Below are positions 3,571-53,643 of a DNA stretch of 54,009 bases, one piece after another. Source of the DNA: Nitrososphaerota archaeon (lineage in GTDB: Archaea; Thermoproteota; Nitrososphaeria; Nitrososphaerales; Nitrosopumilaceae). The stretch lies in NCBI GenBank assembly GCA_027315065.1, contig DAHUYT010000009.1:1-54009 (forward strand). The letters run 5' to 3'. The translations under genes were made by a program, and so were the position numbers. Within the stretch, counting starts at the first letter, position 1; each line of letters starts with the position of its first letter. The notes below the pieces were generated by a model that was not told the origin of the DNA, made no database searches, and saw nothing but the letters and a program-made list of their open reading frames with translations.

Positions 3571-3579
3571 TCTATATAG
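3571..3579 (+). promoter_or_regulatory. Box A (TATA) for the membrane protein at 3603
   Basis: TCTATATAG is centred about 27 bases before the ATG at 3603, the distance expected when archaeal transcription starts at or next to the start codon. No ribosome binding site precedes that ATG, so the mRNA is probably leaderless. The rest of the gap from 3364 holds only very short open frames. Confidence 0.5.
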
Positions 3580-3602
3580 AACAGCTAAAGGTATTTTTCA
3601 AC

Positions 3603-4193
3603 ATGCATCTATCAACCAGATTCTATGCATCTATCATATCAAGAACCAAGAAGATTACGGAAATCTCTTCTTTTCTTGCTATATGCGGTACAATGATAGT
3701 GTTGCTAGGTGGAATCTGGGACTCGGCATCGCATGAACTCAAAATTCCAGAGACATTCTGGACGATTCAACATATGACTATCTATGCTGGTGCATCTCTG
3801 ATAGCTTGTTCCGCTATTGCTGCAATGCTGGTTTTGAATCGCTGTGAAGATAAATCCATAAAAAAAGGAATAATGATGATCTTAGTGGGCTCTATGTTAC
3901 AAATAGTAGGTGGTTATGCAGATTACAATTTTCATGAGATTTATGGAATAGACGGTCTTGTCACACCATCTCATCTTACTGTGGAAACTGGCTTGTTGCT
4001 TAGTGCAATTGGAGGTTTTATTGCGCTGTCCAAGTCTCAAAATCACATCCTTTTAAAAATAACACCAATATCCATAATGTCCATACTTTTATCTGCATCG
4101 TGGATAGGATTCAATCTAGTTCTGCTGTTTAGCGCTGTTATACTGTGTGTTCCTGTGTTTCAATTATTTTATTCCGGCTGTGCAGTTATGTAG
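3603..4193 (+). CDS. Polytopic membrane protein with histidine motifs
   Basis: The 196-residue protein has five or six hydrophobic helices, roughly at 22-42, 55-79, 88-106, 124-142, 150-168 and 170-190. The loops carry ordered polar residues: WDSASHELKIPETFWTIQHM before the second helix and DYNFHEIYGIDGLVTPSHL before the fourth. Both copies follow the pattern D, four or five residues, H, then an F/L-x-T-x-x-H stretch, so the protein looks like an internal duplication of a helix pair with a possible metal site. It overlaps the convergent gene at 4169-4663 by 25 bases. I do not recognise a named family. Confidence 0.65.
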   Translation: MHLSTRFYASIISRTKKITEISSFLAICGTMIVLLGGIWDSASHELKIPETFWTIQHMTIYAGASLIACSAIAAMLVLNRCEDKSIKKGIMMILVGSMLQIVGGYADYNFHEIYGIDGLVTPSHLTVETGLLLSAIGGFIALSKSQNHILLKITPISIMSILLSASWIGFNLVLLFSAVILCVPVFQLFYSGCAVM

Positions 4194-46430: not shown

Positions 46431-47432
46431 TTAAGAATAGCTTTCAGAAACTATATCCTGTACTGTCTCGTTAATCACTGACTCTGCTATGTCGCTTGAA
46501 TATTCTGCAGTTCTACGTATATTCTCCAAGACAAACTTGATTACACTTGTATACTTTTTAGATTCTTCTAGGATATCAGTAAACTCTTGTTCTTTTTGTA
46601 TTATTCTACATGCATTTGATGCAACCACATCTGCCAACGCATAGTTTCTTTTGTTTAGTGCTAAAATAGAATCCTCGAAAACCTTGAGCGATTCCTCGCT
46701 GAGTTTTGTAACCTTTTGTAAAAGTGCTGGTTCTAATATGGATTTAAGGAACTTTGCCCTGCTTGCTATTGAGACTGCATTGTCTGCAATTCTTTCTACC
46801 GACCTTACTACTATTCCGTAACTGATACAATCAGAGGGTTTTTTTAACCCAATATAGCGTAATACGCTTTCATGATCTACTGCCAACGTAAGATTTCGTA
46901 GTATATACAAACTAAAACGATCGACTTCATCATCCAAATGAACAATCTCCTCTCCTAATTCGATATCCATCTCCTTCAATGCATCGATAGCTTGTTTGTG
47001 CATCATGATTACAAGACTAAGCATTCTCTTTAGTGCGTCATTTACAGAAAGTTCTGCTAAACTTGTTAGGATTTGAATTTTTATAGACACTGATGTTGAT
47101 TCTACAATTTCTGTTCCTACCATGTTTCTTCTTACGAGATCTCTTATTGCCTCTTTGTGTTCAAGTTGAATTTTTCCCTCTTTGGATTGGATCTCAATTA
47201 GCTGATAACCAGCCAGATACATTGCTATCACTTTGCGTTGTATGGATTCCGCCGTCTCTTTTTGACTTATGACAGCCTTTGATTTTGCTATCTTTGATTG
47301 AGATATTTCTGCTGATAAAATAGAAAGGGACTTGTTAGCATTCTTTATAATGGAAACCAGATCACCTGTTTTGAGATTTAGCTCATCAACCCATTTCTTT
47401 GGAAGCGAAAGCGCATAAGTAGCTCCACCCAC
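46431..47432 (-). CDS. phoU: AbrB-PhoU phosphate regulator
   Basis: 333 residues from GTG 47432. The N-terminus GGATYALSLPKKWVDELNLK then TGDLVSIIKN is an AbrB/SpoVT-like DNA-binding unit, followed by two PhoU three-helix bundles (VSIKIQILTSLAELSVNDAL, LDDEVDRFSLYILRNLTLAV, VVASNACRIIQKEQEFTDIL). Such fusions occur in archaea beside Pst transporters. The coding sense continues upstream as KIDEKAIRKIQFV, in line with family members, but no ATG, GTG or TTG is found before the stop near 47484, only ATT and ATA. The gene is divergent from pstS across two palindromes. Confidence 0.78.
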   Translation of the reverse strand: MGGATYALSLPKKWVDELNLKTGDLVSIIKNANKSLSILSAEISQSKIAKSKAVISQKETAESIQRKVIAMYLAGYQLIEIQSKEGKIQLEHKEAIRDLVRRNMVGTEIVESTSVSIKIQILTSLAELSVNDALKRMLSLVIMMHKQAIDALKEMDIELGEEIVHLDDEVDRFSLYILRNLTLAVDHESVLRYIGLKKPSDCISYGIVVRSVERIADNAVSIASRAKFLKSILEPALLQKVTKLSEESLKVFEDSILALNKRNYALADVVASNACRIIQKEQEFTDILEESKKYTSVIKFVLENIRRTAEYSSDIAESVINETVQDIVSESYS

Positions 47433-47520
47433 AAACTGTATCTTTCGTATTGCCTTTTCATCTATTTTGTCAATGCAATTTTTTTATCCTGATACGATTA
47501 AAATAATATGACTACATCTT

Positions 47521-47554
47521 ACATAGTACTATGTAGTACTACATAGTATTATGT
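47521..47554. promoter_or_regulatory. Tandem palindromic operator between phoU and pstS
   Basis: ACATAGTACTATGT (47521-47534) is a perfect 14-base palindrome. ACATAGTATTATGT (47541-47554) is a near copy with one base changed. Their centres are 20 bases apart, two helical turns, so bound dimers would lie on the same DNA face. They sit 67 bases upstream of the pstS start and 89 bases from the phoU start. The AbrB-PhoU protein or another regulator might bind. Confidence 0.6.
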
Positions 47555-47592
47555 CAGTTTATGCGTACCATGTAATTCACTTGAAATATTCA

Positions 47593-47600
47593 TTTATACT
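47593..47600 (+). promoter_or_regulatory. Box A of the pst operon
   Basis: TTTATACT is centred about 25 bases before ATG 47621, giving a leaderless pstS. The palindromic sites end about 39 bases upstream of it, so they would act as activator sites or as distal operators. Confidence 0.5.
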
Positions 47601-47620
47601 CTTTTTACAGTACGCTTTTC

Positions 47621-48769
47621 ATGGCTTTAAACAAAATTATAATAATTGGTGTAATAGCTGCTGCCGTTATAATCGGGGTAGGCAGTGCGATATTCTTTAC
47701 TAATGGAAACAACAGTGGAAACACCAACCCGGCTTCATCAATAACCGCCACCAATCCTGCTGGTACCTCCACTCTCTCTGCTGTGACACTCTCAGAGACT
47801 GGGTCCACTCTACTCTATCCACTCTTCAACCTCTGGGTTCCGGCATACACAGCAGCATCCCCTAACGTGCACATAACTACGGCAGGTACAGGAAGCGGAA
47901 CAGGTATTAGTCAGGCTTCTACTGGGACGGTACAGATAGGTGCATCTGATGCATATATGCTAGATTCGCAGATGTCTCAAACTCCAGATATGCTCAACAT
48001 CCCATTGGCAATCTCTGCGCAGCAGATCAACTACAACGTACCTGAAATTCCTGCATCGACACATCTTAATTTATCCGGTCCGGTGCTTGCGGGAATTTAT
48101 AATGGATCAATAACATACTGGGATGATCCACAGATTAAAGATATCAACCAAGCAGTTGCAAACCTGCTACCTCATAAAGTGATAATTCCTATTCACCGTT
48201 CTGATGGTAGTGGCGACACATTCATCTTTACACAATACCTCACAAAGTCAACTCCATCTTGGAGCAACGCGATAGGATTTGGTACCACCGTAAATTGGCC
48301 GTCAGTATCTAGCTCACAAGCAGCATTAGGAAATGGCGGGATGGTTCAGGCATCAGCACAGAACAAGTATTCAATAGCATACATAGGTGTGAGCTTCTTT
48401 GACGACGCAGAAAAGGCTGGCCTAGGATACGCATTCCTCCAGAATAAGGATGGTAATTTCGTTGATATAACAAAAGATAACATAAATTCGGCTGCAAGTG
48501 CACTGGTATCTCAGACTCCTACAGATGAACGAATCTCACTTGTATATGCTCCAGGGCCGAACTCTTATCCGATTATAAACTATGAATATGCAATAGTAAA
48601 GAAGACACAGTCAAACCCTGACACAGCAACAGCGTTGAGCACATTTCTCAATTGGGCACTAGACCCCAACAACGGAAATTCGCCCCAATTCTTGGATAAG
48701 GTACACTTCATTCCACTACCTCCATCGATTGTGCAACTAAGTAAGGCACAAATAGCACAGATTCAGTAA
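47621..48769 (+). CDS. pstS: Phosphate ABC transporter substrate-binding protein
   Basis: 382 residues. A signal anchor (IIIIGVIAAAVIIGVGSAIFF) and a Ser/Thr/Asn linker lead into the phosphate-binding protein: LSETGSTLLYPLFNLWVPAY, TAGTGSGTGISQASTGTVQI, PIHRSDGSGDTFIFTQYLTK and INYEYAIVKKTQ. These are the phosphate-contact loops of PstS. It captures phosphate outside the membrane for PstCA. The pstC start is one base after the stop, so the whole set is one operon. Confidence 0.93.
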   Translation: MALNKIIIIGVIAAAVIIGVGSAIFFTNGNNSGNTNPASSITATNPAGTSTLSAVTLSETGSTLLYPLFNLWVPAYTAASPNVHITTAGTGSGTGISQASTGTVQIGASDAYMLDSQMSQTPDMLNIPLAISAQQINYNVPEIPASTHLNLSGPVLAGIYNGSITYWDDPQIKDINQAVANLLPHKVIIPIHRSDGSGDTFIFTQYLTKSTPSWSNAIGFGTTVNWPSVSSSQAALGNGGMVQASAQNKYSIAYIGVSFFDDAEKAGLGYAFLQNKDGNFVDITKDNINSAASALVSQTPTDERISLVYAPGPNSYPIINYEYAIVKKTQSNPDTATALSTFLNWALDPNNGNSPQFLDKVHFIPLPPSIVQLSKAQIAQIQ

Positions 48770-48770
48770 T

Positions 48771-49766
48771 GTGAAACCAAAAATGCAACATAGATCGGCT
48801 GACAAGATATACAAGTATGTAACAGCAATGGGAGGAGGTAATGCACTGCTCTTTATTTTTGTAATAGGCGCAATACTTGTCATATTCAGCTACCCCTCTC
48901 TTGTAGTAAATGGCCTTCATTTCTTCTCTTCAATCACATGGAATCCTCATCTGAGTGGTGAGATGATAACTATGAACGGAATTAAGACAATATCTGGGGC
49001 CTCCTATGGAATGGTGGTATTTGCAGTTGGTACATTAATATCATCAGCACTTGCCCTTTTGTTTGGTGTTCCAATAGGTCTGGGGGTTGCAATATTTCTT
49101 TCGCAGACAGCTCCTAAAAAAGTCACGGCACCAATATCTTTCTTAGTTGAGATGATGGCAGGGATTCCAAGCGTTATCTATGGCTTTTGGGGCTTTATAG
49201 TACTTGGCCCATTTCTCTTAAATGTTGTAGAGCCAGGACTTGCGGCTCATCTGTCTTTTATCCCATTCTTCAACCCTCCAGTGTATGGCTACGGTCTACT
49301 GGCTTCTGGAATGATACTTGCCCTAATGATAGTACCTATAATTGCTTCAATAAGCCGTGATGCCATGCTTCAAACACCAAAAGAGCTCAAGGAAGGGGCA
49401 GTGGCACTTGGTCTAACAAAGTGGGAGTTCATCAGGAGCATGGTACTTCCATTTGCAAAAACCAGTATCATAGGCTCGATCATTTTGGGGCTAGGCAGAT
49501 CTCTTGGTGAAACGATGGCAGTAGCAATGGTTGCAGGCGGTGCTGTAAACTACTTGCCACATACATTCTTTTATTCAACTAATACGATGGCTGCATTTAT
49601 GGCACTCTCAATGGATAGTGCCTTCACAGATCCAAGTGGCATGTTTATTTCAGCACTTGTAGAGTTAGCACTTGTCCTTATGATAATTACTACGACAGTA
49701 AATGTAATAGCTAGAGCCTTAGTCAAGCGGGGTTTCATAAGCTCTGAAACGGTGATAAAAATTTAA
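48771..49766 (+). CDS. pstC: Phosphate ABC transporter permease PstC
   Basis: 331 residues, starting at GTG 48771. Six membrane helices are visible, starting with ALLFIFVIGAILVIFSYPSL. The permease motif is LKEGAVALGLTKWEFIRSMVLP, the EAA loop that contacts the ATPase, and SLGETMAVAMVAGG follows. The protein forms the channel with PstA. Translation is coupled to pstS (one-base gap). Confidence 0.92.
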   Translation: MKPKMQHRSADKIYKYVTAMGGGNALLFIFVIGAILVIFSYPSLVVNGLHFFSSITWNPHLSGEMITMNGIKTISGASYGMVVFAVGTLISSALALLFGVPIGLGVAIFLSQTAPKKVTAPISFLVEMMAGIPSVIYGFWGFIVLGPFLLNVVEPGLAAHLSFIPFFNPPVYGYGLLASGMILALMIVPIIASISRDAMLQTPKELKEGAVALGLTKWEFIRSMVLPFAKTSIIGSIILGLGRSLGETMAVAMVAGGAVNYLPHTFFYSTNTMAAFMALSMDSAFTDPSGMFISALVELALVLMIITTTVNVIARALVKRGFISSETVIKI

Positions 49767-49769
49767 GAT

Positions 49770-50735
49770 GTGCATCGAAATGAATCTAGGATTCTTAGGA
49801 GTGACAAATTGAAAAAATACAAAGAGAATACATTCAATGTTATAGACCAGCAACAATCTATTCTGCAACCGTGGCAGGATCCTAGAGTACTGTCTAGGTA
49901 CAGAACACGAAAATTAAAGAATAGTTTGTTCAAAATTTTTCCAATCGTTTCCCTATTAGCTATTCTTTATCCGTTACTTGACATACTGTATATGTTTGCA
50001 TACAAGGGAGTTCAAGTAATCTCGTTTACACGGTTGACAGGACTAACCTCTGGATATGTGGGGCTGGCAAACGAAATTGTTGGCACCTTCTTTTTAATAG
50101 CGTTATCATCTGCCATAGTCATTCCAATGGGAGTCTCTGGTGGGATATACATGGCAGAGTTTTCTAGGAAGAGCAAATATACTGAAATGGTTCATTTTGT
50201 TATAGATATTCTTGCTGGTGTGCCTTCTATAGTTCTTGGCTATGCTGGATATCTCTTGCTTGTACTGTACCTTGGCTGTGGCTTTTCTGCTCTTGCAGGT
50301 GCCATTACTCTTTCAGTATTAATGCTTCCTTATATAATCAGGACAACAGAACTCTCTTTGAATAGGGTACCAACGAGTATAAGAGAGGCTGCAACTGCAT
50401 TGGGGTGCACAAAAACTACCATGATAAACCGACTTACTTTAAGATTTGCCCTGCCAGGAATTCTTACCGGAATTTTATTAGCGATAAGTATAGCTTTTGG
50501 GGAAACAGCAGCCCTTCTTTTTACTACAGGTGCTTCAGATTACATGCCTACTGGTGCTCTATGCAACTCTCAAGTAGGTTATCTTACATATGCAATATTC
50601 CAATTCTCCCCATTCCAGTCTCCATTTGCCAGCGCCAATAATTTGGCATATTTAGCTGCCTTTCTTTTAATTATAATAGTACTTTCTATAAACATCATAG
50701 CAAGAATAGGTCTGCGTCGCCTATCCAAGATATAG
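49770..50735 (+). CDS. pstA: Phosphate ABC transporter permease PstA
   Basis: 321 residues. GTG 49770 is the given start; TTG at 49809 (LKKYKENTFN) is another option. Helices include IFPIVSLLAILYPLLDILYM, and the EAA motif is IREAATALGCTKTTMINRLT, followed by AISIAFGETAALLFTTGA. It pairs with PstC. The start follows pstC by three bases. Confidence 0.9.
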   Translation: MHRNESRILRSDKLKKYKENTFNVIDQQQSILQPWQDPRVLSRYRTRKLKNSLFKIFPIVSLLAILYPLLDILYMFAYKGVQVISFTRLTGLTSGYVGLANEIVGTFFLIALSSAIVIPMGVSGGIYMAEFSRKSKYTEMVHFVIDILAGVPSIVLGYAGYLLLVLYLGCGFSALAGAITLSVLMLPYIIRTTELSLNRVPTSIREAATALGCTKTTMINRLTLRFALPGILTGILLAISIAFGETAALLFTTGASDYMPTGALCNSQVGYLTYAIFQFSPFQSPFASANNLAYLAAFLLIIIVLSINIIARIGLRRLSKI

Positions 50736-50750
50736 TGTGGTGATGTACAA

Positions 50751-51605
50751 ATGATGAGAGAATTTACAAAAAATGAATTGCAGTCAACCCTGAAAAAAAG
50801 AAAGCAAGAAACAACTCAAAAGGATGACCTTGAAACCTCATATGAGAATAAACCTATAATCCAAACCTTGAACTTGGACGCATTCTATGGAGGCAGGCAA
50901 GTTCTCAAAGATATCAACTTATCAATTGAGGCAAAGAAGATAACAGCTATAGTGGGACCATCAGGATGCGGCAAAACCACCCTTGTTAGGATAATGAACA
51001 GAATGAATGATGAGATAGATGCCTTTAGAATCAGTGGCAAGGTATCCTTGCATGGGTATGATATGTACACTCAGATGGATCCAATCCTTCTAAAACTACA
51101 TGTAGGTATGGTCTTCCAAAAACTTAATCCATTTCCAGTCTCGATATATGAAAACGTAGCCTTTGGACCAAAGGTGCACAAACTTGTTCGTAGCAAAGGC
51201 GAGTTGGACTCTGTTGTTAAAAAAAGCCTTGAGCAGGCAGCGTTATGGGATGAGGTAAAAGATAGGTTAAATGAAAATGCTATGACACTTTCAGGGGGAC
51301 AACAGCAAAGGCTGTGCATTGCTAGGGCTCTTGCAATTAGGCCAGAGGTACTATTATTAGACGAACCGACAACTTCACTAGATCCAATTTCCACCTCGCA
51401 GATCGAAAAGACGATGAAAAAGTTGGTGGAAAACTACACTATAGTTCTAGTGACGCATGACATGCAGCAGGCAGCAAGAGTTTCAGATTATACTGCATTC
51501 ATGGATCTTGGTAATCTTGTAGAATTCGGAGAAACAAATCAGATCTTTGAAAACCCTCGTTATGAAGCTACGGCAAGATACATCCAAGGACAGTTTGATG
51601 AATGA
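50751..51605 (+). CDS. pstB: Phosphate ABC transporter ATPase PstB
   Basis: 284 residues. Walker A is VGPSGCGKTTLVRIMNRMND, the signature LSGGQQQRLCIARALA and Walker B VLLLDEPTTSLDP, with the switch histidine in VLVTHDMQQAARVSD. The N-terminal 40 residues (NELQSTLKKRKQETTQKDDL) are an extra charged helix compared with bacterial PstB. It powers uptake by PstCA. It is the last gene of the operon. Confidence 0.95.
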   Translation: MMREFTKNELQSTLKKRKQETTQKDDLETSYENKPIIQTLNLDAFYGGRQVLKDINLSIEAKKITAIVGPSGCGKTTLVRIMNRMNDEIDAFRISGKVSLHGYDMYTQMDPILLKLHVGMVFQKLNPFPVSIYENVAFGPKVHKLVRSKGELDSVVKKSLEQAALWDEVKDRLNENAMTLSGGQQQRLCIARALAIRPEVLLLDEPTTSLDPISTSQIEKTMKKLVENYTIVLVTHDMQQAARVSDYTAFMDLGNLVEFGETNQIFENPRYEATARYIQGQFDE

Positions 51606-53082: not shown

Positions 53083-53643
53083 CTATACTTCACTTGAAAG
53101 TGACAGGTACCTACTCACAAGCTTGTTAGACCATGTATTCCATTCGTCGGAATAGTAATCTTTGAGGAATCTCACAACAATGTCTACATTGGTGGATACC
53201 TGATATCTTCTGTATCTACCGTCTCTGAACTCAAATATCACTCCAAGATTAGAGAGGCGGTCACCATGCCATCTAACTGATGCATATGATATCTCAATGC
53301 TTTTTACTATGTCTTTTAGAGTGGGGTTCTTTCGCTCCATTATGAACATCAATATCTTGCGCGTATTCTTGTGATATAATGCCTTTAGCACACTCTTCTC
53401 ATAATCGCTGTATTTTGAAACTAGAAAGAAATACCTAAAGGACTCGTTTTTCTCAGATGATATCTTGCCATGTTTTTCTAAAGAATGCAGGTGATATCTC
53501 AATGTACCTAACGCCAATCCTAAATCAGTTTTCATCTTGCGTAGATGACTACTTGGGTTTCTCTCCAGATATTGCAAAATTTTTGTTTGATTCACTTTCA
53601 AATCTGTTTTCTGTAGTACTGACACACTCTCACCTAAAATCAT
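53083..53643 (-). CDS. Tandem winged-helix transcription regulator
   Basis: 186 residues with two HTH units: residues 16-72 (VNQTKILQYLERNPSSHLRK, LGTLRYHLHSLEKHGKISSE, FRYFFLVS) and residues 80-150 (EKSVLKALYHKNTRKILMFI, ISYASVRWHGDRLSNLGVIF, RDGRYRRYQVS). Such two-unit proteins are seen in archaea as activators or repressors of unknown targets. The gene is preceded by about 280 bases (53644-53923) without a gene and with several A/T tracts. DNA targets are not known. Confidence 0.75.
   Translation of the reverse strand: MILGESVSVLQKTDLKVNQTKILQYLERNPSSHLRKMKTDLGLALGTLRYHLHSLEKHGKISSEKNESFRYFFLVSKYSDYEKSVLKALYHKNTRKILMFIMERKNPTLKDIVKSIEISYASVRWHGDRLSNLGVIFEFRDGRYRRYQVSTNVDIVVRFLKDYYSDEWNTWSNKLVSRYLSLSSEV

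Follow-up and report, generated by a model that had tools for sequence, protein, structure and literature searches.

A probable Pho operator of ammonia-oxidising archaea, with the AbrB domain of AbrB-PhoU as its likeliest binder

Two short palindromes lie between a phoU gene and a pst operon that point away from each other in a Nitrosotalea genome, which raises the question of what element they belong to, which genes it marks and which protein might bind it. Nitrosotalea are acid-tolerant ammonia-oxidising archaea, and the stretch analysed here (the window; 54,009 nucleotides) is contig 86 of a 1.74-Mb genome of this genus. The divergent setting described in an earlier note on this DNA is as we find it. 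The minus strand carries, at 46431–47471, a gene for a protein in which an AbrB part of the MazE_antitoxin fold (PF04014) is joined to PhoU (PF01895); its frame is open to 47471 without a standard start, and the first GTG is at 47432. On the plus strand are pstS, encoding the phosphate-binding protein (47621–48769; closest relatives, at 67%, in other families of the order), and pstC, pstA and pstB (48771–51605).

Both 14-bp palindromes reported earlier are present, ACATAGTACTATGT at 47521–47534 and ACATAGTATTATGT at 47541–47554, with a distance of 20 bp from centre to centre. They are the two ends of one near-perfect, strandless palindrome of 34 bp, ACATAGTACTATGTAGTACTACATAGTATTATGT (47521–47554), with its axis at 47537/47538 and 16 of 17 positions paired. 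In its middle is a perfect 18-bp palindrome, CTATGTAGTACTACATAG (47529–47546), and this centre, between the two 14-mers, proves to be the best conserved part of the element. When the whole window was scanned for 34-mers with at least 14 of 17 pairs, this element was the only one found; order-1 Markov simulations predict 0.12 sites per window at that threshold, and 60 simulations produced none with at least 15 pairs. Matches to the 14-mer with at most one mismatch lie nearly all at this locus, with a single other one-mismatch match in 1.74 Mb. The 14-mer was rejected as the motif unit, as its two-mismatch matches were no more frequent than those of a reversed control. The locus matched no RNA family in an Rfam scan, and it is implausible that a terminator would sit between divergent genes.

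The earlier parse into two separate 14-bp palindromes gives way to a different one, in which the conserved element consists of CTATATAG units in 10-bp steps. The phoU promoters of about 25 Nitrosotalea relatives share the pattern ATAG-nn-CTATATAG-nn-nnACATAG, three units in 10-bp steps, and the window element is likewise built of 8-bp units of the type CTATRTAG at this interval. Unit 1, TTACATAG (47519–47526), has two mismatches to CTATATAG and matches the first 10-bp-phased unit of the Nitrosotalea phoU operators; by sequence comparison, unit 2, CTATGTAG (47529–47536), and unit 3, CTACATAG (47539–47546; −82 from the pstS ATG), have one mismatch each, and all three are without strand. The two 14-mers correspond to the unit 1–2 and unit 3–4 pairs. 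A weight matrix built from the phoU operators of 25 distinct Nitrosotalea relatives gave the window element 22.5 bits; with both strands of the window scored, the best unrelated site reached −4.5 and the mean was −59, and on this score we take it to be the same operator as that of the genus phoU genes, with the variant units TTACATAG-CTATGTAG-CTACATAG. The full three-unit window pattern occurs once in 37 genomes of the genus, in the window itself, because the relatives carry CTATATAG and not CTATGTAG. Absence of the motif upstream of pstS in close relatives had been named as evidence against an operator; the exact 14-mer is indeed absent there, and the underlying CTATATAG element is present. 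Units of CTATATAG stand singly or in tandem, at 9–10 bp (about one helical turn) or 18–21 bp (about two turns).

The phoU and pstS promoters served as the discovery set, and the remaining promoters were held out. Counting CTATATAG within 180 bp before a gene, in relatives that are not independent inside the genus, we found it in the Nitrosotalea phoU-pstC divergon before phoU at 28/28 loci and before pstC at 27/27, upstream of pstS1 in 23 of 25 loci, before sixA in the tmk/sixA-ppx divergon at all 19 loci, and upstream of DUF47-pit in 9/9, at −41, with a second site at −23 in 8 of them. Across the genus its position before phoU-pstC, pstS, sixA-ppx and DUF47-pit is constant, and it also precedes a second AbrB-PhoU gene, phoU-b. 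No site was found in Nitrosotalea before pstA, pstB, phoU2, chad or pit itself. The site precedes pstS in 28/29 cases in the genus and in 13/16 from other genera of the family together with family f8, and it precedes phoU in 10/19 promoters across the order; control 8-bp palindromes of equal GC content average at most 0.14 loci in each of these sets. In genomes of the Nitrosopumilus and Nitrososphaera types, too, the 8-mer is a mark of the promoters of pstS, pit and phoU, and in two complete marine Nitrosopumilus-type genomes a site lies before phoU-pstC, pstS and phoU-b in both and before DUF47-pit in one. AbrB-PhoU genes with no CTATATAG upstream occur in some families of the order.

Clustering near phosphate genes, which had been proposed as a check, is evident in N. 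devanaterra. Its genome holds eight copies of WCTATATAGW, four of them inside the Pho cluster, which spans 10 kb, and a fifth upstream of phoU-b, so that five of eight fall in phosphate promoters, within 1 kb of promoter DNA (binomial 3e-15); with the phoU and pstS discovery sites removed, three of six do so (binomial 7e-10). Two of the other three copies overlap open reading frames and one is near ilvE. The site thus stands before several independent phosphate genes and is rare elsewhere, and promoters and genera outside the discovery set lend strong support to reading the locus as an archaeal phosphate operator. Leaving its binder aside, we have little doubt that the site is an operator.

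Some further sites were noted in passing. WCTATATAGATCA lies between ilvE, about 290–470 bp away, and a neighbouring thermosome-like gene, and is conserved in Nitrosotalea and Nitrosopumilus (L139:1492, L149:1542, L158:1561, L210:650, L217:589, L218:573); an Rfam scan of two of these loci gave no match. In the window, a gene for a small membrane protein that starts near 3603 has TCTATATAGA (3571–3580) 22 bp upstream and is possibly a further member of the regulon. Secreted proteins adjoin pstS in Nitrosopumilus, with a Pho site upstream (L206:7577–8224, L207:7172–8773), and these may be new phosphate-regulated surface proteins.

The position of the site relative to the core promoter is also conserved, with start codons and TATA boxes placed by position. 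At pstS, 36 or 44–45 bp separate the end of the unit from a TAAATA box, which in relatives is itself 24–29 bp before the start codon. The two spacings differ by about one helical turn, which fits a bound protein that has to be turned towards the transcription machinery. In the window, the probable pstS TATA box is TTTATA (47593–47598, plus strand; placed by position, 28 bp before the ATG), and unit 3 ends 46 bp before it, close to the 44–45 bp of one group of relatives. The probable phoU TATA box region, ATTATTTTAAT (47497–47508, minus strand), was placed by position and by comparison with other phoU promoters, and adjoins the operator. Two other arrangements lie over the likely core promoter: a pair of units with 18-bp spacing at DUF47-pit, and at phoU-b one unit or, in Nitrosotalea, two units 21 bp apart. 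Because at pst the site lies 36 or 45 bp upstream of the TATA box, and because sites overlap the core promoter at pit and phoU-b, this placement suggests that one protein may activate pst at low phosphate and repress pit and phoU-b.

The genome that holds the window has three more AbrB-PhoU genes: a close copy on C22 (79% identical to the window PhoU) that belongs to the main Pho cluster and is orthologous to the gene of the genus; phoU-b on C1 (34%); and paralogue c (28%). The window PhoU groups among Nitrosotalea sequences on a long branch, in a placement without strong support. The window PstS and PstC have their closest relatives in families f9 and f10 (57–67% and 59–62% identical, respectively) and are only 35–37% identical to the native copies on C22. 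The simplest account is that this second, foreign-type pst operon was joined to a duplicate of the Nitrosotalea phoU, which carried its operator along. CTATATAG is present in 0/9 foreign-type pstS promoters (one has a single CTACATAG), and for this reason the operator probably arrived with phoU. Between 47432 and 47490 (minus strand) there is no ATG, GTG or TTG for phoU upstream of 47432, and an apparent one-base frameshift just past the TTG start of close relatives would cut AbrB strand 1; the anomaly seems to be a real change, a rare start codon or an assembly error. Downstream of the pst operon, at 53083–53643 (minus strand), is a gene for a two-part winged-helix regulator with an HVO_0163-type N-terminal HTH.

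With the site family taken as real, its copy in the window might still be a decayed, non-functional leftover of the duplicated phoU promoter. The units CTATGTAG and CTACATAG are variants of the consensus, a departure that counts against reading the window copy as an operator, and phoU has no standard start codon and a long branch. Against decay, the element has grown more symmetric, with the 10-bp phase kept in all its units and the distance to the TATA-like box of pstS maintained; for phoU, moreover, a dN/dS of about 0.12 relative to the C22 copy indicates purifying selection. We consider decay unlikely. A broader objection is that CTATATAG is a core-promoter element, in effect a strong TATA box, or a chance palindrome of A+T-rich DNA. 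It does contain TATATA, and in phoU-b and some families of the order it lies at about TATA distance from the start, where it could be the TATA box itself. As an explanation of the site in general this is very improbable: WCTATATAGW has only 1–15 copies per Nitrosopumilaceae genome examined, other A+T-rich palindromes are without comparable enrichment, CTATATAG marks mainly phosphate genes among promoters, and pstS promoters have their separate, position-fixed TAAATA 36 or 45 bp downstream.

The earlier note had proposed AbrB-PhoU as the binder; autoregulatory placement, co-occurrence and its standing as sole dedicated DNA-binding protein of the N. devanaterra Pho cluster favour this proposal indirectly, and direct binding is probable. 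The AbrB fold is recognised by PF04014 in the window PhoU (E 5e-8) and in N. devanaterra PhoU-a and PhoU-b (E 1e-7 and 7e-9). The phoU-a and phoU-b promoters carry the site more consistently than any others; a palindrome lies in the candidate regulator's own promoter, as in autoregulated operators of the AbrB/MazE type. Nearly all AbrB-PhoU-b promoters examined have it, including those of genomes that lost pst, and the sole WCTATATAGW of a complete 1.2-Mb genome is 16 bp before AbrB-PhoU-b. No site lies upstream of paralogue c, whose AbrB segment has IGSSILVSLP in place of TGxSSYIVSLP. Several families without CTATATAG before phoU have ALPK instead of SLPK in this segment, a hint of protein-DNA co-variation that is confounded by descent. 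Families without CTATATAG share another pattern upstream of AbrB-PhoU, TATATATgg...CAAG...AtATAT (L120, L123, L126, L128, L129), and four of these five loci have ALPK. A PDB search gave no structure of AbrB-PhoU, only bacterial-type PhoU (1t72).

That the operator is real and is bound by some other transcription factor, for example a winged-helix protein encoded elsewhere, with AbrB-PhoU as a target and co-sensor, is a rival reading. The distribution of the site shows regulation of the phoU genes, which differs from binding by their products, and winged-helix proteins are frequent, the one at 53083–53643 included. This is nonetheless a rather unlikely explanation, given that the N. devanaterra Pho cluster has no other dedicated regulator (a general TFB lies downstream), that the site is kept before AbrB-PhoU-b in pst-less genomes, as is typical of autoregulation, and that paralogue c, whose AbrB segment has diverged, is without it. 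We favour, with reasonable though limited confidence, the combined reading of CTATATAG as the Pho operator of ammonia-oxidising archaea and the AbrB domain of AbrB-PhoU as its likeliest binder.

The sequences show that the site exists, is conserved, keeps its position and has a regulon-specific distribution; binder, signal and sign of regulation we infer. On this reading CTATATAG is an 8-bp palindromic cis-regulatory unit common to the phosphate genes of ammonia-oxidising archaea, and the AbrB domain would bind it while the PhoU part relays phosphate status, with pst activated at low phosphate and pit and phoU-b repressed where sites overlap the core promoter. The three window units between phoU and pstS could serve both promoters. 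Because the window phoU has no standard start before AbrB strand 1, another PhoU copy may bind there. A complete one-component switch, in which AbrB-PhoU senses phosphate, binds CTATATAG, activates pst and represses pit and its own gene, and which the acquired window pst joined, is a tentative scheme that we would not yet back.

In the bacterial PhoB box a sequence is repeated directly every 11 bp. This box resembles the present site as an operator before pst whose units, as in the PhoB/PhoP Pho box generally, recur about every helical turn; the archaeal unit differs in being self-complementary, CTATATAG or variants at 9–10 or 18–21 bp. Identity with the PhoB box was rejected, the units being palindromic without 11-bp direct repeats, in agreement with the distinction drawn earlier, and the Pho cluster showed no gene for PhoB/PhoR. 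At its N-terminus PhoU matches the MazE_antitoxin family and so resembles the SpoVT-AbrB/MazE fold (AbrB, MazE, VapB, Sso7c4), whose dimeric members bind DNA and in many cases autoregulate; the difference is its fusion here to a PhoU sensor, with phosphate genes as targets. The nearest known kind, likened by description and not by box sequence, is the haloarchaeal pho box (P-box) of Halobacterium salinarum pst1/pst2, also an archaeal cis element before pst ascribed to PhoU-type regulators; the summary in PMC6560208, citing Furtwangler et al. 2010, describes the boxes as PhoU-regulator binding motifs essential for induction of the pst promoters. The present site differs in its occurrence in ammonia-oxidising archaea and in a regulon that adds pit, sixA-ppx and phoU. 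We found no description of the motif or of an AbrB-PhoU regulator in ammonia oxidisers in the open-licence papers searched, a negative of little weight. An archaeal pho box as such is no new idea; its sequence, its order-wide reach and the ammonia-oxidiser regulon may be new.

Phosphate supply shapes the habitats of ammonia-oxidising archaea (PMC7490402). With a short operator, a small regulon and a specific protein proposed as binder, the control of their phosphate genes becomes directly testable, and the operator can serve as a marker of phosphate-regulated genes in uncultured lineages. If the proposed reading is true, PhoU, which in bacteria has an accessory role in signalling, can act as a transcription factor itself.
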